Below are positions 6,152-63,530 of a stretch of DNA of 64,000 bases, one piece after another. Position 1 is the stretch's first letter. The number at the start of each line of letters is the position of its first letter. Made by a program: the position numbers and the translations under genes. Under the pieces are notes generated by a model that saw only the letters and a program-made list of their open reading frames with translations, was not told the origin of the DNA and did no database searches. This stretch comes from Magnetococcales bacterium (GTDB lineage Bacteria > Pseudomonadota > Magnetococcia > Magnetococcales > JADGCL01). The DNA is taken from contig JADGCL010000006.1 in the NCBI GenBank assembly GCA_015229005.1, forward strand, positions 1 to 64,000, read 5' to 3'.

Positions 6152-6157
6152 GTGTAT

Positions 6158-6301
6158 CAGCCCGTTGATAAACGGGCTGCGCCGGCCAGGGATGGCCGGC
6201 CAAATTCAACGGGATGGTGTAACCCGTTGAATTTGGAAGGAAAGGCAAAACCACGTTTTGCCTTTCCGGGTTGAAAAAGTCCATGGATGGACTTTTTCAA
6301 C
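6158..6301 (+). repeat. Repeat family A, best copy (A1): five contiguous hairpins
   Basis: CAGCCCGTT/AACGGGCTG; GCCGGCCA/TGGCCGGC; CCAAATTCAACGGG/CCCGTTGAATTTGG; GGAAAGGCAAAA/TTTTGCCTTTCC; GTTGAAAAAGTCCAT/ATGGACTTTTTCAAC, back to back. Confidence 0.9.
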
Positions 6302-6332
6302 AGTCTCGTATGGGGCACGAAGGGAGTGTTCG

Positions 6333-10041: not shown

Positions 10042-10053
10042 GAGGGGTCTTGG

Positions 10054-10197
10054 CAGCCCGTTGACAAACGGGCTGCGCCGGCCAAGGATGGCCGGAAAAG
10101 TACAACTTGACGGTTTAACCTGTCGAATTTGAAAGGAAATGTAAAGCCTGGTTCCACCTTTGCCGGGTTGATGGAGTCCACGGATGGACTTTTCGAC
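10054..10197 (+). repeat. Repeat family A, copy A2 (partly decayed)
   Basis: CAGCCCGTTgacaAACGGGCTG, CCGGCCAaggaTGGCCGG, GTTGATGGAGTCCACGGATGGACTTTTCGAC in the same order as A1. Confidence 0.85.
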
Positions 10198-10234
10198 AGT
10201 CTGTCAGGTCCCCTCCCGTTCGGGTTTCCGAAAG

Positions 10235-16094: not shown

Positions 16095-16140
16095 AATCGG
16101 GCATTCCCCTCCCAATTCCGAACGAAAAATCGATGAAGAA

Positions 16141-16240
16141 AGATAATATCAGAAGTGATTGGAGGAGCCCGAGGGGGAGGCTCCGCCTGCCCCCTCGGTG
16201 TGTTCGGGGGCGAAACCCCCGAAATGATCGGACGATACCC
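16141..16240 (+). repeat. Repeat family B, copy B1
   Basis: AGATAATATC..GGAGGAGCCCGAGGGGGAGGCTCCGCCTGCCCCCTCGGTG..TTCGGGGGCGAAACCCCCGAAA, shared with 20.97, 33.7 and 45.0 kb. Confidence 0.85.
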
Positions 16241-16250
16241 TTACGAGACT

Positions 16251-16281
16251 GTTGAAAAAGTCCATCCATGGACTTTTCAAC
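16251..16281 (-). repeat. Repeat family A, copy A3 (terminal hairpin module only)
   Basis: GTTGAAAAAGTCCATCCATGGACTTTTCAAC with conserved flank (CAGTCTCGTA on the opposite strand). Confidence 0.8.
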
Positions 16282-16287
16282 GGTCTG

Positions 16288-18135
16288 TCAAGGGTTGTCC
16301 ACGTAAACGTGCCCCCAGTTGCCGCCAATGGTAACCCGGGTAAAACCTGCGTTGGGGTAAACGTCTCTCTCCTCCATCAATTCCCGCCATTTCCCCGTAT
16401 GTGGAAACGGCACATCGATCTCTGTTTGTTCCAGGCTGAAGTTGAGGACGATCATGAATTTCTGGTATCCACCGCCATCTGGCTTCCAACCCTCCCGGCG
16501 GTAGATCATGAGCTGGCGCTTGACATCGATACCATATCCGTCGGAATCGAAGGTTTGTTGCGATTCATTCCAGAGATCCGGATAGAAATAGTTCCCGCGC
16601 AACGCCGGATACTGATGGCGCATGGCGATCAACTTCCGATAGAGCCAGAACGATTTTTCCCCGAATCGGTCTTCCAGTTTCCGCCAGTAAAGGGGGCGGG
16701 AGTGGATCCTCCGCCTGCTGCCTTCATCGTTGTCCGGCACCCAGTGATCCTCTGCGAACTCCTGCCCGTTCTGGAGCATTGGCGCTCCGGGGGCGGTGAA
16801 CAGGGCGATGGCCCAGGGCTGGGTCCGATACCAGAGGATGCCCCCGTTGTTGTTTCTGGCTCCGGCCTGCCAACAGACATGGGAATGGTCGTGGTTGCTG
16901 AGATACGTTGTGGGGACCTTGGCAAAGTCGCCCATCCATCTGTTGGTGTTCAGGGCGTTCAAAGCCGTCGGCTGCAATTTGTATTCCCACAGGTGGTGAA
17001 AGCAGGCGTGGAGAATGGCGTCATCCCAGTAACTGGTGGCCCGGGTTCCACGAACCACCGAGACGGCGCTCTCGTCGAGATGTTCTATGGTCATGGAGAA
17101 ATTGTGGATGCCGTTCTGGGTGACGTGATCATGGATCTCGGCCATGAGTCTTTCGACTCCATGGCCCGGGTCATTGGGAATCTGGAAGTTCGTGGTGTTG
17201 TCGAAACGGATCCCGTCGATCTTGAACTCGTCTATCCAATAGAGGCAGACGTCTCTGATAAAGTCTTGAGTACAGGCATTGTTGTAGTTAAGATCCTTGA
17301 GTGTACCAAACTCTTTATCGTAGACGCCGATATAGGGGCATCTGTCCCTGTCTTGATACATATCCCGGTACGGAAAGTATTCGGAGACATGATTGAATAC
17401 CCCGTCCATGATGACATGGATACCTTTTTCGTGGCAGGCGCTGATCAACTTTTTGAGCCAGGAGATCTTCTCGGTTGGCTTCAGGGGATCATTGGCAAGG
17501 CGATACTCCACCGCGAAAAATTGGAGCGGTTCGTATCCCCAGTCGAAATGGCGATCCTTCCACGCGGTCCAGGGCATGAAGAGAATGGCGTTGATGCCCA
17601 GGCTCACGAGATGTCCGAGTTTGTCCCGGACGGCGTCCAGGGGGGCACGGCATTCGCGAAAGTCGGCGGTGAAATCGTCGATGTTCATCTCGTAGATGAC
17701 GAGATCCCGAAGGGGCTTGCGGTCGGCAAGGCCGGCGATGGGATTATCACCCGGCTGACTGCCGCCGATGACGACGGCCGCATTTTGGTTTTCCGTGCCG
17801 CTGTAACGGGTGCAGGGGTCGCTGAGGTGACGCGACTCCCCGTTTTCGAACCAGGCCATGTATTTGTACTGGTAAAATCCTGCTGGCAGAGAAGGTGTCT
17901 CGAAGCTGTAGAAAATACCATCTGGAATGGTTTTCTTAACCATCTCTGGGCCATTATTGAAATCCCAATCCGTCTGTCCCATGTGATTCTGGAAGTCTCC
18001 GGCAACCTTTATCTTGGTGATGCCGGTGGGGAAGCCTTTTGGGAAAAACAGCTTGAAGCCGATCTTGCCACCGTTGGCATCTCCCCCCATCTGCCAGGCC
18101 CCAAGTTCTTGTTTGGTATGAAATTTTTTCTCCAT
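16288..18135 (-). CDS. Alpha-amylase family glycoside hydrolase (GH13) with N-terminal CBM48-like region
   Basis: HVIMDGVFNHVSEYF, FKIDGIRFDNTTNF, TIEHLDES, TYLSNHDHSHV catalytic regions. Confidence 0.88.
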   Translation of the reverse strand: MEKKFHTKQELGAWQMGGDANGGKIGFKLFFPKGFPTGITKIKVAGDFQNHMGQTDWDFNNGPEMVKKTIPDGIFYSFETPSLPAGFYQYKYMAWFENGESRHLSDPCTRYSGTENQNAAVVIGGSQPGDNPIAGLADRKPLRDLVIYEMNIDDFTADFRECRAPLDAVRDKLGHLVSLGINAILFMPWTAWKDRHFDWGYEPLQFFAVEYRLANDPLKPTEKISWLKKLISACHEKGIHVIMDGVFNHVSEYFPYRDMYQDRDRCPYIGVYDKEFGTLKDLNYNNACTQDFIRDVCLYWIDEFKIDGIRFDNTTNFQIPNDPGHGVERLMAEIHDHVTQNGIHNFSMTIEHLDESAVSVVRGTRATSYWDDAILHACFHHLWEYKLQPTALNALNTNRWMGDFAKVPTTYLSNHDHSHVCWQAGARNNNGGILWYRTQPWAIALFTAPGAPMLQNGQEFAEDHWVPDNDEGSRRRIHSRPLYWRKLEDRFGEKSFWLYRKLIAMRHQYPALRGNYFYPDLWNESQQTFDSDGYGIDVKRQLMIYRREGWKPDGGGYQKFMIVLNFSLEQTEIDVPFPHTGKWRELMEERDVYPNAGFTRVTIGGNWGHVYVDNP

Positions 18136-18950: not shown

Positions 18951-20972
18951 ATGGCACTCCGGGAATTTCCCACGACCTGTCCCCTGGATTGTCCCAGTGC
19001 CTGTGCCCTGATCGCCACCATCGCCGATGGGCGCCTGCTCAAGCTGACCGGTGACCCGAGCCATCCCTTCACCCGGGGGGTGATCTGCAGCAAGGTTGCC
19101 AATTATCACCGGTTTCTGGAAGGGGAAAGGCTCACCCGCCCCCTTCTCCGGAGCGGCCCCAAGGGGAGTGGTCACTTTCGGGAGATCACCTGGGACGAGG
19201 CCCTGGACCGCATTGCCGCCGGGTTGTTGGAGGTGACGCGACGGCATGGCGCCGAGGCCGTCTTCCCCTACCATTATGGGGGCACCATGGGGGTGGTGCA
19301 ACGCAATGCCCCCGAGCGCCTGACGCACCGGGCCGGTTATTCGCGCCTGGAGAAGAACATCTGCTACAACATCGCCGAGGCCGGCTGGTTGGCCGGGGTG
19401 GGCAAGGCCTGGGGGCCGAATCCCGCCGCGATTGCCGACAGCGATCTGCCGGTTCTTTGGGGAATCAACGCCGTCTCCACCCATCTCCAGCTCATGGGAT
19501 TCGTCACCGAGGCCCGCCGACGGGGGGCGCCTCTGGTGGTGGTCGATCCTTATCGCAATCGGACGGCACGTCAAGCCGACCTGCACCTCTCTCCCCGGCC
19601 CGGGACGGATGGGGCCTTGGCCGTGGCGCTTCTGCATCTTCTGCTCGTCGAAGGGTATGCCGATACGGCGTACCTGGCGCAATGGACCGACTATTCCGAT
19701 GCCTTGCGCCACCACCTGGAGTCGCGCACCCCCGCCTGGGCGGCGCTCCTCTGTGGTGTCCCCGAGGCCGACATCCGCCGGTTTGCGCATCTTTATGGGA
19801 GGGCCAAGCGTCCGTTCATCCGCATCGGACTGGGGATGAGTCGGCACCGCAACGGCGCCGTCAATCTGCATGCCGTCTCCTGCCTGCCGGCCCTGACCGG
19901 TGCCTGGAGGCGGGGAGGGGGGGCCCTCTTCGCCACGGGGGATGCCTTTGGCGTCGTCAGTGAGCCGGTCATCCAGAGCCGGTGGAGGCAGGAACGGACC
20001 CGGATCCTCGACATGAGTCGCCTCGGGGCCTTGTTGACGGACGAGGCGCCGACCCCGGGGATTCATGCCCTGTTGGTCTTCCATGCCAATCCGGCGGGGT
20101 CGGCCCCGGATCTCGGTCGGGTTTGGAAGGGATTGCGGCGGGAAGATCTCTTCACCGTGGTTCATGAGCTGGTGATGAGCGATACCGCGCGTCTGGCTGA
20201 TCTGGTTCTTCCGGCGACCTCCTTTCTCGAACATGAGGATCTCTACAAATCCTACGGACAGTACACCCTTCAGCATGCCGGGAAGCTCCTGGAGCCGGTC
20301 GGCGAGGCGCGGAGCAATAACGATACGGTCAATGCCCTCGCCCGTCGCCTGGGTTTCGATGAGCCGCCGTTTCAGTGGGATGCGGGTGTCTTTGTGGAAC
20401 AAGTACTCGAGGCCTCCGGGCTTCCCCGGCGGGTGGATTGGCCTGGGCGCTGGCTGGATCGGGCTCCGACCGAGGCGAAGCAGTATTTTCGGGAGGGTTT
20501 TCCGCAGGAGGATGGCAGGTTCCATTTCCAGCCCGGTTGGGCGGATGCGACCATGCCCCGTTTCCCGGACCATTGGCCGGTCAATGCCAGGGATCGGGTG
20601 GATTCGGGTCGATATCCCCTGGATTTCATGACGCCGCCGGCGCACCACATCCTCAATACCACCTTCACCGCGTCGGCGTGGCACCGGTCCAGACGGGGCC
20701 GACCTCTGCTTTGGATCCATCCCGCAGACGCCCGGAGGCGGGGGATCGGAGAGGGGGACGCGGTGGTGGTATTCAACGATCAGGGAAGTGTGACCATGTG
20801 GGCGCGGGTGACCGAGGGGGTGAGGGAGGGGCTTTGTGTGACCGAGTCGAACTATCGGGGCGACGAACTGCCGGAGGGGATCGGGATCAACCTCTTGACG
20901 AGCGCCGACCGGGTCGCGCCTGCGGGTGGGGCGGCTTTCCACGACAACCGGGTCGAGGTCAGACGGCTATAG
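18951..20972 (+). CDS. Molybdopterin-dependent oxidoreductase
   Basis: CPLDCPSACAL...GVICSK (4Fe-4S), ITWDEALDRIA, DLVLPATSFLEHEDLYKSYGQYTLQ. Confidence 0.88.
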   Translation: MALREFPTTCPLDCPSACALIATIADGRLLKLTGDPSHPFTRGVICSKVANYHRFLEGERLTRPLLRSGPKGSGHFREITWDEALDRIAAGLLEVTRRHGAEAVFPYHYGGTMGVVQRNAPERLTHRAGYSRLEKNICYNIAEAGWLAGVGKAWGPNPAAIADSDLPVLWGINAVSTHLQLMGFVTEARRRGAPLVVVDPYRNRTARQADLHLSPRPGTDGALAVALLHLLLVEGYADTAYLAQWTDYSDALRHHLESRTPAWAALLCGVPEADIRRFAHLYGRAKRPFIRIGLGMSRHRNGAVNLHAVSCLPALTGAWRRGGGALFATGDAFGVVSEPVIQSRWRQERTRILDMSRLGALLTDEAPTPGIHALLVFHANPAGSAPDLGRVWKGLRREDLFTVVHELVMSDTARLADLVLPATSFLEHEDLYKSYGQYTLQHAGKLLEPVGEARSNNDTVNALARRLGFDEPPFQWDAGVFVEQVLEASGLPRRVDWPGRWLDRAPTEAKQYFREGFPQEDGRFHFQPGWADATMPRFPDHWPVNARDRVDSGRYPLDFMTPPAHHILNTTFTASAWHRSRRGRPLLWIHPADARRRGIGEGDAVVVFNDQGSVTMWARVTEGVREGLCVTESNYRGDELPEGIGINLLTSADRVAPAGGAAFHDNRVEVRRL

Positions 20973-21115
20973 AAGACATTATCGAGAGTGGTTGGGGGAG
21001 TCTGAGGGGGAGGCTCCGCCTGCCCCCTCAGTGGTGGTTCGGGGGCGAAGCCCCTGAAACAACCGGATTATGCTTCTGCCCATGCTCCCTTGAACGGTTT
21101 CCGTGATTCCTCCCT
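20971..21115 (+). repeat. Repeat family B, copy B2
   Basis: AGTGGTTGGGGGAGTCTGAGGGGGAGGCTCCGCCTGCCCCCTCAGTGGTGGTTCGGGGGCGAAGCCCCTGAAACAA..CATGCTCCCTTGAACGGTTTCC. Confidence 0.85.
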
Positions 21116-35739: not shown

Positions 35740-35881
35740 TCCTCTGTCGGAGAAGTTGGGGTATGCAGGAGAGGGTGTCTGGCGGTCGGCACTCTTCTTC
35801 CTGCTGCCCTTTCTTCCCGGGTTGCCGAGGAAGTATGTTCGTGAGGGGTTTCGTTTCGGGAGGGTAATACCGGGTATTGTC

Positions 35882-35965
35882 TTCCGTTCCAAATCCAGCC
35901 GGTTGCGCCAATCTGCCGGATTTGGTCGATCGTCCGTGGCTGGCTGATCGGTCGTTTATCGACGT
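35882..35965 (-). repeat. Repeat family A, diverged copy A6 (inverted) in the apgM leader
   Basis: Reverse complement CGTCGATAAACGACCGATCAGCCAGCCACGGACGATCGACCAAATCCGGCAGATTGGCGCAACCGGCTGGATTTGGAACGG aligns along A1. Confidence 0.6.
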
Positions 35966-36002
35966 GCAGCTCAATGGGGGGGGGGAGGCGTTGGGAGGGG
36001 TG

Positions 36003-38045: not shown

Positions 38046-38190
38046 CTGGCAGCCCGTCGATGATCGATCCGTGCGGGTCGTGGAAGGCGAGCAGGATTCG
38101 ATGGGACGGTGTAGCATGTTGAATTTATGTGGAAAAGCAGGGAAGGGTTGCGCCATTCCGAAGGGCCTGTTGACGGACCTTGGTCCCATG
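38046..38190 (+). repeat. Repeat family A, decayed copy A5
   Basis: CAGCCCGTCGATGATCGAT..GATTCGATGGGACGGTGTAGCATGTTGAATTT..GTTGACGGACCTTGGTCCC in A1 order. Confidence 0.55.
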
Positions 38191-38332
38191 CTAGGTCGGG
38201 GAACGTGCTGATTGAAATGTTCTGGGGCAAACGTTAGAATTCGGGGGAAGCGGACTGCCGGGGTTGTTTGGTCGGGGTGGGGGCGTCGGGTGTTGTTTGT
38301 TAGGTGTTGTTGGCAGGGTTTGAAGGGTCGCC

Positions 38333-40105
38333 ATGGTGAATTGCAGGAAGTTGAACAGGAAGTTGAATGAGTTGGCCGGTCGGGTCAAAGTTGTTGCCAT
38401 AAGCTTGCCGCTTGCCCTGTGGGGGTGCCTCGGCCCGTCACAGGTTGCCATCCCGAGCGACGAATCCCGGAGCGGGCCGCCGGTGGCCGGCTTCGAGAGG
38501 AGCGAGGCGGTCACCAAGGTGGAGAAGGCAGTCTTCAGCTATATTGCGGGGCATCTTCTCCTGGAGGACAACCAGTGGAACGAAGCCGAAGATGCCTTCA
38601 AGGAGGTGGCCTCGGCGGACGTGGAGGCGCTGGATGCCCGGGTGTTGGTTGCGCACTTGGCCACGCAGAGGGGGGACCTGAGCGTAGCGGGGGAGTATGC
38701 CCGTCAAGTGCTGGAACGTGATGCCGACGAATCGAAGACGCGCCTTCTTTTGGCCGGTGTCCTGACTGCCTCCAAGGCGTACAGCGAGGCTGCCACCCAG
38801 TATGAGGAGCTGCTGAAGCGTGAGCCGGACAATGCCCGGGCGCGTATTCTGCTGGCGCAGATCTACGGGCTGTTGAAGACGGCGACGAAGGCGGCGAAAG
38901 TCCTGGAACCCCTTCTCGGCGACCCTGAGTGGGCTTGGCAGGGCCATCTGGCGCTGGGGCGCTCCTGGGCCAATCAGGGGGAGTTGGAGAAGGCACTGAA
39001 GCCGTTCAGGCAGGCCTATCGGCTGGAGTCGGGGAATCTGGAGCCAGTGCTGGCGCTTGGCGCGGCCCTCCAGGAACTGAAGCGCCCCAAGGAGGCGGAA
39101 AAGGTTTACCGGGATTTTCTGGAGCGTCACCCCGACAGCAAGGCCGTTCACGGTCGGTTGGGAAGGCTGTTGTTGACCCGCGATGACCGGGAGGCGGCCC
39201 TTGAGGAGTTTCGGGAGATCAGCCGTCTTGCCCCCGACAGTGTCCAGGCGCGTCTGACGACGGCGTTGATCCTCTTGAGCCGGAAGGATTACGACGAGGC
39301 CCTCCAGGAGTTGCGCCTTGCGGAGGCGTTGGGTCCCGACAATTCGGGAGTCTATTACTATCTCGGTCAGGCCCTGGAGTCATTGGATCGGGATTCCGAG
39401 GCGGTGGTCGAGTATGACAAGGTCCAGAACGGTCAGCCTTTTTATCTGGAATCTCAGCTGCGTTTGGCCTTCCTTGATGCGTCCCGGGGGGCGGATGCTG
39501 CGGCGGTGGAGAGGTTGCGGCAGTTGACGGCCTCCAATCCGGAGCGGGTTGATCTGGTTCTGGCGCTCAGCATGTTGCTTCTGCAGGCTAAGGATTATCC
39601 CGGGGTAGTGGAGACCTCTACCAAGGGATTGGCGCTCGATCCGGCGCAGTCGCGGCTGCGTTTCAATCGGGCGATGGCCCTGGACAAACTGCAGCGCTGG
39701 CCGGAGGCCGAGGCCGACCTCAAGACCTATATTTCGGACAATCCCACCGATGCCCACGCGCTGAATTATCTGGGGTATACCTGGGCGGAGCGGGGCGAGA
39801 ACCTGGAGGAGTCGCACCAGCTTCTGCGGAAGGCGGTCAAACTGGCTCCCGGCGATGGTTTCATTACTGACAGTCTTGGTTGGGTTTTGTTTCGCATGAA
39901 GCGGCTGGAGGAGTCCCTGACGATGATGCGAGAGGCGGTCCGCCTGGAGCCGGGTGATCCTACCATCGCCGAACATCTCGGGGATGTGCTCGAGGCGACG
40001 GGTCGGGTCGACGAGGCGGTCAAGGTCTGGCGCAAGGCGTTGGAGTTGGATGCGGGCAACCAGCGCCTGCGCGACAAGATCGGAGGGCATGGGCACCCCC
40101 TCTAG
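38333..40105 (+). CDS. TPR-repeat lipoprotein
   Basis: Lipobox-like VVAISLPLALWGCLG; many TPR units (GHLLLEDNQWNEAEDAFKEV..., LGYTWAERGENLEESHQLLRKAVKLAPGD). Confidence 0.85.
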   Translation: MVNCRKLNRKLNELAGRVKVVAISLPLALWGCLGPSQVAIPSDESRSGPPVAGFERSEAVTKVEKAVFSYIAGHLLLEDNQWNEAEDAFKEVASADVEALDARVLVAHLATQRGDLSVAGEYARQVLERDADESKTRLLLAGVLTASKAYSEAATQYEELLKREPDNARARILLAQIYGLLKTATKAAKVLEPLLGDPEWAWQGHLALGRSWANQGELEKALKPFRQAYRLESGNLEPVLALGAALQELKRPKEAEKVYRDFLERHPDSKAVHGRLGRLLLTRDDREAALEEFREISRLAPDSVQARLTTALILLSRKDYDEALQELRLAEALGPDNSGVYYYLGQALESLDRDSEAVVEYDKVQNGQPFYLESQLRLAFLDASRGADAAAVERLRQLTASNPERVDLVLALSMLLLQAKDYPGVVETSTKGLALDPAQSRLRFNRAMALDKLQRWPEAEADLKTYISDNPTDAHALNYLGYTWAERGENLEESHQLLRKAVKLAPGDGFITDSLGWVLFRMKRLEESLTMMREAVRLEPGDPTIAEHLGDVLEATGRVDEAVKVWRKALELDAGNQRLRDKIGGHGHPL

Positions 40106-40106
40106 G

Positions 40107-40210
40107 AGACTATTGAAAAAGTCCATCCATGGACTTTTTCGAGCCGGAAAGGCAAAACGTGGTTTTGCCTTTCCTTCCAGATTGGGCTCGTTGGGGCGGC
40201 CCGGATCGTT
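40107..40210 (-). repeat. Repeat family A, copy A4 (inverted)
   Basis: ATTGAAAAAGTCCATCCATGGACTTTTTCGAgccGGAAAGGCAAAACGTGGTTTTGCCTTTCC = last two A1 hairpins, reverse orientation. Confidence 0.8.
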
Positions 40211-40341
40211 TGGGTTTTCGAAAAGGGTCACCGTTCGGTTTTCCTGGCTGTAGAGTCACGGAGGGACTCTCCGTTGCGGCGCTGGTCCGGTATGTTTTTC
40301 CCCTGCATTCCTGTCAATGCTGATACTTCTGAAAGAGCCAC

Positions 40342-44972: not shown

Positions 44973-45008
44973 TCACGACCGGAGGGTTGACCCTCGGGTT
45001 CTTCCATA

Positions 45009-45145
45009 AAAGATAATATTGACAGTGGTTGGGGGAGCCCGAGGGGGAGGCTCCGCCTGCCCCCTTGGTGGGGGTTCGGGGGCGAAGCCCCTGAAACAAA
45101 CAGGATGATATCCCTGACCATGCTTCCCTGAACGGTTACCCTGGA
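45009..45145 (+). repeat. Repeat family B, copy B3
   Basis: AGATAATATTGACAGTGGTTGGGGGAGCCCGAGGGGGAGGCTCCGCCTGCCCCCTTGGTGGGGGTTCGGGGGCGAAGCCCCTGAAACAA..CCATGCTTCCCTGAACGGTTACC. Confidence 0.88.
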
Positions 45146-55384: not shown

Positions 55385-56290
55385 ATGAGCATGGACAGCG
55401 TACGCAAGAAGGTCATCCTCGACTTCGACAAGCTGCGGGCCAAAGGGGTTCTGACCCCTGACGAGGGGCGGAGTACGGTGGCCGAGGAGTACCGGATCAT
55501 CAAGCGTCCCCTGTTGCTCAACGCCACCAATCGGGGTCCTGGTGGGGTCCACAAGGGCAACATGATCATGGTGACGAGCGCTTTCCCCAAGGAGGGAAAG
55601 ACCTTCACCGCCATCAATCTGGCCATGAGTTTGGCGGCGGAGATGGACAGCACCGTCCTCCTGGTGGATGGTGATGTGGCCAAGCCCTCCGTGGCCAGGG
55701 TGTTGGGGTTCAAGGCCAAGGTTGGTCTGATCGACTGTCTGTTGGGGAAGGTCCAGGATTTCTCCGAGGTGCTGATCCGGACGAATGTCCCGAAGCTGAT
55801 GCTCTTGCCTTCCGGACGGTTGCACCACCATGCGACAGAGTTGCTGGCGAGCGAGAATATGCGGTTGCTTTTGGAGGAGATGCTCAGGACCGGACCGGAC
55901 CGGATCGTGGTCTTCGATTCACCGCCGTTGCTGGTCACCACAGAGGCCCGGGAGTTGGCACGTAATATGGGGCAGATTGTCATGGTGGTGGAGGCGGAGC
56001 GGACGCCGCAGATGGCGGTCAAGGATGCGCTGGATCAGTTGGACAATCTGGAGATTGTGGGAATGGTTCTCAACAAAACCCGTGGCCGAGGGGGTGGGGG
56101 CTATTATGGCTACGGCGGCTACGGCGGCTACGGTGGCTACGGTGGTTATGGTGGTTACGGGGGCCAAGGGGGTGGGGGCTACGGTAGCTACGGGGGCTAT
56201 GGTGGGTATGGCAAGCGTGGGGGTGGAAGTTATGGGGGCGCCCCGAAAAGCAGAAAGGGCAATTTCTGGAAGAAGCTGCTCGGGATGTGA
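55385..56290 (+). CDS. CpsD/CapB-type BY-kinase (tyrosine autokinase) with Gly/Tyr-rich tail
   Basis: MIMVTSAFPKEGKTFTAINLAMSLA (Walker A), VLLVDGDVAKPSV (Walker A'), VVFDSPPLL; tail YYGYGGYGGYGGYGGYGGYGGQGGGGYGSYGGYGGYG. Confidence 0.92.
   Translation: MSMDSVRKKVILDFDKLRAKGVLTPDEGRSTVAEEYRIIKRPLLLNATNRGPGGVHKGNMIMVTSAFPKEGKTFTAINLAMSLAAEMDSTVLLVDGDVAKPSVARVLGFKAKVGLIDCLLGKVQDFSEVLIRTNVPKLMLLPSGRLHHHATELLASENMRLLLEEMLRTGPDRIVVFDSPPLLVTTEARELARNMGQIVMVVEAERTPQMAVKDALDQLDNLEIVGMVLNKTRGRGGGGYYGYGGYGGYGGYGGYGGYGGQGGGGYGSYGGYGGYGKRGGGSYGGAPKSRKGNFWKKLLGM
56098..56250 (+). repeat. In-gene tandem 9-bp (GGY) repeat tract
   Basis: GGCTACGGC/GGCTACGGT/GGTTATGGT units encoding (GGY)n. Confidence 0.85.
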
Positions 56291-63359: not shown

Positions 63360-63388
63360 GGGGGGAGAGTAGCGCCGGTTTGCCCCGA

Positions 63389-63530
63389 ATCGCAAGGAAA
63401 TCCCATGCAATCCGAAAGGTTACTCTTTGTTACCGAAGAGCGGGCGCGGGAGGGCAGCGCCTGTCCGCGCTGGATTACGAGGAAACCCCATGCAATCCGA
63501 AAGGTTGCTCGTCAGTTACCGAATGGAAAG
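63389..63530. repeat. Two-copy imperfect tandem repeat, period about 85 bp
   Basis: CGCAAGGAAATCCCATGCAATCCGAAAGGTTACTCTTTGTTACCGAA and ACGAGGAAACCCCATGCAATCCGAAAGGTTGCTCGTCAGTTACCGAA. Confidence 0.8.
63419..63433. promoter_or_regulatory. GTNAC-N5-GTNAC motif
   Basis: GTTAC-TCTTT-GTTAC, 60 bp upstream of the minus-strand GGDEF gene start. Confidence 0.4.

Follow-up and report, generated by a model that had tools for sequence, protein, structure and literature searches.

Short, non-autonomous mobile repeats that lie between genes and have RNA-folding potential are known in bacteria from the ERIC, Correia and RUP/BOX families, and among them we know of none in which an array of several hairpins with constant loop motifs is conserved. 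The element analysed here, found in a 64,000-nucleotide window (the whole stretch of DNA under analysis) from a Magnetococcales bacterium, is of the same general kind and unrelated to those families in sequence and layout. With its hairpins and the A(N)GGA motif it also resembles CsrB/CsrC and RsmX/Y/Z, multi-hairpin RNAs whose A(N)GGA loops bind CsrA/RsmA. Each of those RNAs comes from one chromosomal gene that has its own promoter and many GGA sites, whereas the element is dispersed and by all appearances mobile, has two such sites and no recognised promoter, and matches no relevant family in Rfam 15 (at gathering or at E ≤ 1). REP, BIME and REPIN sequences, which are associated with RAYT, are likewise dispersed intergenic palindromes in proteobacteria; the element differs from them in having a constant set of five hairpins as well as terminal repeats and target duplications, and in its occurrence in a genome (G015) without Y1 transposase.

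ERIC, Correia and RUP/BOX repeats are the subject of a review (PMC10969869). QMITE1 and QMITE2 of Coxiella burnetii are, like the element, strongly folding MITEs (about 50 copies), and some QMITE copies are transcribed as the small RNAs CbsR3, CbsR13 and CbsR16 (PMC5896051). They have other sizes and direct repeats of 2-4 bp and 7-9 bp, and are described in Coxiella only, QMITE1 with 'no orthologues in other genomes'; the paper makes no mention of CsrA (PMC5896051). Covariation across several families is not known for them. The RNAs RrA, RrB and RrF from E. coli rRNA operons are similar to the element in being short and in presenting GGA in stem loops, and their binding of CsrA in vitro is lost when three GGA are replaced, but they come from three fixed, non-mobile rRNA-operon loci (PMC8144298).

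Anatomy of the element and its copies

The full-length element of the window occupies positions 6158-6307 on the + strand (150 bp, CAG...CTC), as delimited by nucleotide search, covariance model and its target-site duplication, GTAT, which lies at 6154-6157 on the left and 6308-6311 on the right (no strand assigned). An earlier note, made from the letters of the window, had described five successive perfect hairpins at 6158-6301. The array is real, with perfect stems of 9, 8, 13-14, 13 and 14-15 bp and near-zero spacing, and the right end of the element falls at 6307 and not at 6301. All five hairpins are assigned to the + strand. Hairpin 1 (6158-6179; 9 bp, loop GATA) contributes its 5' arm as the left terminal inverted repeat, and hairpin 2 (6181-6200; 8 bp) has the tip CCA-GGGA-TGG with an A(N)GGA motif at 6188-6192. 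Hairpin 3 (6200-6236) pairs over 13-14 bp around a 9-nt loop and hairpin 4 (6239-6267) over 13 bp around a 3-nt loop. Hairpin 5 (6270-6301; 14-15 bp) has the tip CCA-TGGA-TGG, with the second A(N)GGA motif at 6283-6287, and forms the right terminal inverted repeat together with positions 6302-6307. The predicted folding energy of a 156-nt segment is -91.2 kcal/mol, compared to -46.1 ± 4.1 kcal/mol for dinucleotide shuffles (z = -11.1), and none of 200 shuffles folded equally well.

The recurrences reported earlier near 10054, 38046, 35882 (inverted), 16251 and 40107 were all recovered as model or nucleotide matches. A second full-length copy at 10054-10203 (+) is partly decayed and flanked by the imperfect duplication TTGG/TCAG; its model match spans 10051-10206 (E 6e-34) with 81% identity over the aligned part. 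Two old decayed copies lie at 35815-35972 (-; model E 2.2e-7) and 38047-38193 (+; model E 2.6e-7). The earlier note had listed both among the recurrences of the modules; the matches are genuine, and the stems are largely broken, the 38047 copy having lost most of its base pairs. This loss of stems in old copies indicates that individual copies are not preserved by host selection. At 40103-40223 (-), a partial copy found by nucleotide search and covariance model retains only hairpins 4 and 5 intact, and at 16238-16290 (-) hairpin 5 stands alone with a terminal repeat on either side. Copies reduced to hairpins 4-5 do exist, as do palindromes made of hairpin 5 with a terminal repeat on each side, but the polar loss of modules proposed earlier could not be established, other truncations being contig ends or assembly gaps. 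The palindromes measure about 45-50 bp (L171, L172 and window 16238-16290) and may represent minimal elements that arose from the full-length one.

The metagenome-assembled genome to which the window belongs comprises 3.28 Mb in 173 contigs and is 79% complete. Nucleotide searches of this genome found about 40 near-full copies, many of them at 90-99% identity, and a genome-wide search with covariance model R1, a check suggested in the earlier note, gave 56 matches, so that there are copies beyond those it had listed. Several matches to the terminal repeats at contig ends mark assembly breaks within the element. Several contigs of the assembly (G000) end inside it, at L169, L176, L177 and L178, and the true copy number is therefore probably above that found. 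The element measures 141-167 bp, and from this length and its dense hairpins we judge it to lack coding capacity.

The window contains further repeats. Another dispersed repeat, about 94 nt long (GGGGGAGGCTCCGCCTGCCCCCT...GTTCGGGGGCGAAGCCCC) and unrelated to the element, occurs at 16136-16229, 20969-21062 and 45006-45099 (65-89% identical). A 63-nt tandem duplication with 85-bp spacing lies at 63363-63425 and 63448-63510 (79% identical), and short tandem repeats at 56084-56211 appear to encode a glycine/tyrosine-rich stretch (GGCTACGGC units).

Ends, target sites and genomic context

Aligned copies have sharp ends, where imperfect terminal inverted repeats read TRN-CAGNCYGTTGA on both sides. 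In 23 of the 47 model-aligned copies with readable flanks, a perfect 4-bp direct repeat lies exactly outside CAG...CTG; there is no perfect 4-bp duplication at offsets of 1-4, and flanks swapped between copies give an expectation of 1.8. Insertions favour NTAN targets, in many cases YTAR. A Magnetococcales branch represented by G032 and G045 has elements of 141-144 bp with the ends GAGGCTGTTTGG...CCAAACAGCCTC, and several of its copies carry 3-bp TNA-like duplications on inspection. The target-site duplications that the earlier note had proposed to look for are thus present, and together with the terminal repeats and the genome-wide family they bear out its description of the sequence as MITE-like and more elaborate than a REP element. 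The element, as judged from its sequence, is almost certainly mobile. Our analysis shows that it is non-autonomous, duplicates its target and carries an old, conserved five-hairpin cargo.

Both 4-bp duplications at YTAR-like targets and 3-bp duplications at TNA targets are known within the IS5 family, which we take as a lead only. The element and its sister branch share these habits with IS5-family elements and their MITEs and, unlike an IS5-family insertion sequence, lack a transposase gene. An insertion sequence with matching ends was found neither with the terminal-repeat pattern in the element's own genome (79% complete) nor via PF01609 (DDE_Tnp_1) and PF13340 (DUF4096) in five Magnetococcales genomes, fragmented MAGs among them. 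A REP-associated tyrosine transposase, also put forward for checking in the earlier note, is absent from G015, a 99%-complete genome of the same order, in which the element is abundant with dozens of copies, and we rejected a REP/RAYT origin on this ground; G000 has a single weak Y1 transposase match without the ends of the element. An integron attC site is contradicted by the target duplications and inverted ends. A search for plasmid spread with four representatives of the element gave no match.

Among 72 copies for which a home-made predictor called both neighbouring genes, 23 lie in sense orientation to both genes and 17 in antisense orientation, 16 between convergent and 16 between divergent genes. 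A fixed cis-regulatory role is made less likely by this lack of orientation bias. In several cases, the gene upstream of a copy terminates inside the target-site duplication, which provides its stop codon, and around the window copy a scan gave no promoter-like or terminator-like match. These observations bear on the earlier proposal that the element processes transcript ends, in favour of which several insertions at stop codons can be cited, while the missing strand bias and the negative terminator scan speak against it. In its fullest form, this proposal would make the element a mobile transcript-end cassette in which hairpin 5 acts as a bidirectional terminator and the other hairpins shield the mRNA end, with no role for CsrA. 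Hairpin 5 reads AAAAAGTCC..GGACTTTTT, with a comparable arrangement of A and T in many other subfamilies and the succession of A-run, stem and T-run in most of them, and the duplicated target forms the end of several upstream genes, as such a cassette would suggest. However, the T-run lies inside the stem, is missing from the G032/G045 (f7) and G048 (f15) types and was not recognised by the terminator scan, and neither GGA nor the orientation of the loops discussed below would be explained. We consider this cassette very improbable.

Conservation of the fold and of two hairpin loops

R1 matches were found in six of 48 Magnetococcales genomes, to which the sister model R2 adds two, and in at least 45 of 399 genomes sampled evenly across the phylum, belonging to at least 20 genera and at least ten families; seven candidates per genome were scored, so these counts are lower bounds. 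When 12 of the bearing genomes were re-scored, as many as 71 matches were obtained in a single genome. As the family is absent from Rfam 15, its copies, which number in the tens in several of these bacteria, are not annotated there. Outside Magnetococcales, the sequence differs nearly everywhere, and the order and number of the hairpins and their approximate length are the same.

Across 43 distinct sequences, 92.9% of the cells pair and 52 of 57 base pairs show two-sided changes. The covariation score is 0.671, compared to 0.190 for shuffled sequences and 0.070-0.091 for slid partners. As the alignments were fitted to a structure model, or the structure was taken from one sequence, the percentage paired is biased towards structure, a bias that weighs less on the two-sided changes and on the slide control. 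Subsets restricted to Magnetococcales are also compensatory, in agreement with the cross-family set. Double changes occur in every stem, in line with the structured RNA that the earlier note had suggested. Divergence among young copies also supports the structure, at 2% in the stems as against 14% at unpaired positions, the latter figure including the target-site bases. Contrary to the other outcome it had envisaged, a family confined to the listed copies with neither compensation nor boundaries, further copies, compensatory changes and defined ends were all found. In the cross-family stems, G-U pairs exceed A-C mismatches by 99 to 31 (p 2e-9), or by 78 to 26 if each pair is counted a single time in each genome (p = 3e-7), compared to 170 and 146 among copies within two genomes in the same model alignment. 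The excess of G-U over A-C across families identifies the + strand as the constrained one and favours a single-strand constraint, either as RNA or as single-stranded DNA. We conclude that selection has probably acted on the structure of the + strand.

Paired changes can also arise by mutation, and an ordinary MITE might acquire its appearance from template switching within quasi-palindromes, in which one arm is rewritten from the other and the loops are flipped. Young copies already contain 10 double paired changes where 0.5 are expected. Among G015 loci (L032, L036-L050 and others), hairpins 3 and 4 each have loops of either orientation, in all combinations (hairpin 3, GGA 8 : TCC 8; hairpin 4, TCT 11 : AGA 3), which indicates that hairpins invert at the DNA level, and the hairpin-5 loops of a GGA-less G032 subfamily likewise bear this signature of inversion. 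Events of this kind could create some of the compensatory changes without selection. Yet uncorrected mismatches are abundant in old copies, which show 253 single changes and 52 double Watson-Crick changes, and template switching leaves unexplained the excess of G-U over A-C between families, the fixed number and order of hairpins over ten families and the two GGA loops that do not flip. As an account of the whole element, we regard it as improbable.

The A(N)GGA motifs at the tips of hairpins 2 and 5 are among the best-conserved unpaired positions across the family and make up most of the strongly conserved loop bases. Across families, the motif of hairpin 2 is retained as A in 42 of 44 sequences, G in 42, G in 42 and A in 43, and that of hairpin 5 as A in 42/42, G in 44/44 and A in 43/44. 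GGA persists while the length of the loop varies (CATGGATG, CAGGATG, CAGGAAG) and ANGGA exchanges with AGGA. In G000 and G015, GGA outnumbers its inverted form by 64:1 in hairpin 2 and 62:1 in hairpin 5, and in G048, G069 and G164 the counts are 39:0 and 35:0 (74:0 in total). Copies share descent, so that Fisher values for orientation overstate the significance; what counts is the contrast itself. A constraint on the two A(N)GGA loops is strongly supported by these data.

In a numerous G032 subfamily (L057, L062, L075, L126-L129, L268-L288), GGA has disappeared from both loops, and the loop of hairpin 5 is found in both orientations (TGAA 9, TTCA 13). The abundance of this subfamily suggests that the loops are dispensable for movement and shows that a partner reading them is dispensable for spread, and a host factor is therefore likelier than a transposase to be the reader of the loops.

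The same observations have to be weighed against the view that the hairpins serve the mobility of the MITE itself as single-stranded DNA or cruciforms, for recognition by a transposase or host factor or for targeting to replication forks, with RNA and CsrA irrelevant. Structure is kept between lineages while single copies decay, as if only mobile copies needed it; the copies show no bias of orientation towards genes; DNA hairpins also tolerate G-T, which makes the G-U excess compatible with DNA; and the terminal repeats belong to hairpins 1 and 5. On the other hand, this view does not account for a near-invariant, strictly oriented GGA in just two loops that mobility does not need, given the spread of the GGA-less G032 subfamily. 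Furthermore, perfect 3-4 bp duplications and inverted ends suit an ordinary DDE transposase, for which internal hairpins are unnecessary, and the Y1 (HUH) transposase is absent from G015. We therefore consider a purely DNA-level function of the hairpins rather unlikely.

CsrA and the proposed role of the cargo

ANGGA is the recognition motif of CsrA/RsmA (PMC9788540), and GGA in the loop is required for CsrA binding of RrB (PMC8144298). The genome that contains the window encodes a canonical CsrA (MLILTRRIGESLNIGDD...VHREEIYDKI), closest in sequence to RsmE (PDB 2jpp). Of the near-complete genomes in the sample of 399, those that bear the element all encode csrA (28/28), compared to 142 of the 311 that do not bear it; by genus, the figures are 20/20 and 78/192. 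This association is confounded by phylogeny, one family making up about half of the genera, and is thus a test passed, not a proof. Overall, 43 of 45 bearing genomes have csrA, and the two that lack it have completeness values of 69% and 74%. Nearly all Magnetococcales genomes encode csrA (39/41), so that its presence is uninformative within the order. One element-bearing genome, G138, has nine csrA genes, far above most of the sampled genomes. Literature searches for a link of MITEs with CsrA, or of Magnetococcales or Gallionella with MITEs, found nothing relevant.

From these data, we infer that the cargo functions as RNA, and we regard CsrA as a credible partner of the element, with the chances for and against evenly balanced. 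We therefore favour, at about even confidence, a composite in which a transposase-dependent MITE carries a structured, CsrA-binding RNA. A transposase supplied in trans would act through the imperfect terminal inverted repeats to move the gene-less MITE into YTAR-like sites, with duplication of 4 bp or, in one branch of the Magnetococcales, of 3 bp. Once a copy is transcribed, by read-through from a neighbouring gene or from a promoter that escaped recognition, the five-hairpin cargo would act as RNA, and the A(N)GGA loops of hairpins 2 and 5 could take up one CsrA dimer, with hairpins 3 and 4 as spacers. The copies would then be dispersed CsrA-binding sites or sponges, or would tether CsrA to the transcripts to which they are joined, and such tethering may soften the harm of an insertion. 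A net effect on the host via CsrA is doubtful.

Bacterial MITEs are usually regarded as ends only, and here a five-hairpin fold has been kept over ten families of one phylum. It is possible, and we propose it tentatively, that the element is a widespread, undescribed selfish DNA with a conserved CsrA-binding RNA, each transposition of which adds a binding site for the regulator. If so, the availability of CsrA would be tuned by the load of elements, and their tolerance by the host would depend in part on CsrA. Provided that CsrA binds, mobile DNA would have repeatedly multiplied the sites of a global regulator, as a bacterial counterpart of transposon-borne regulatory sites.
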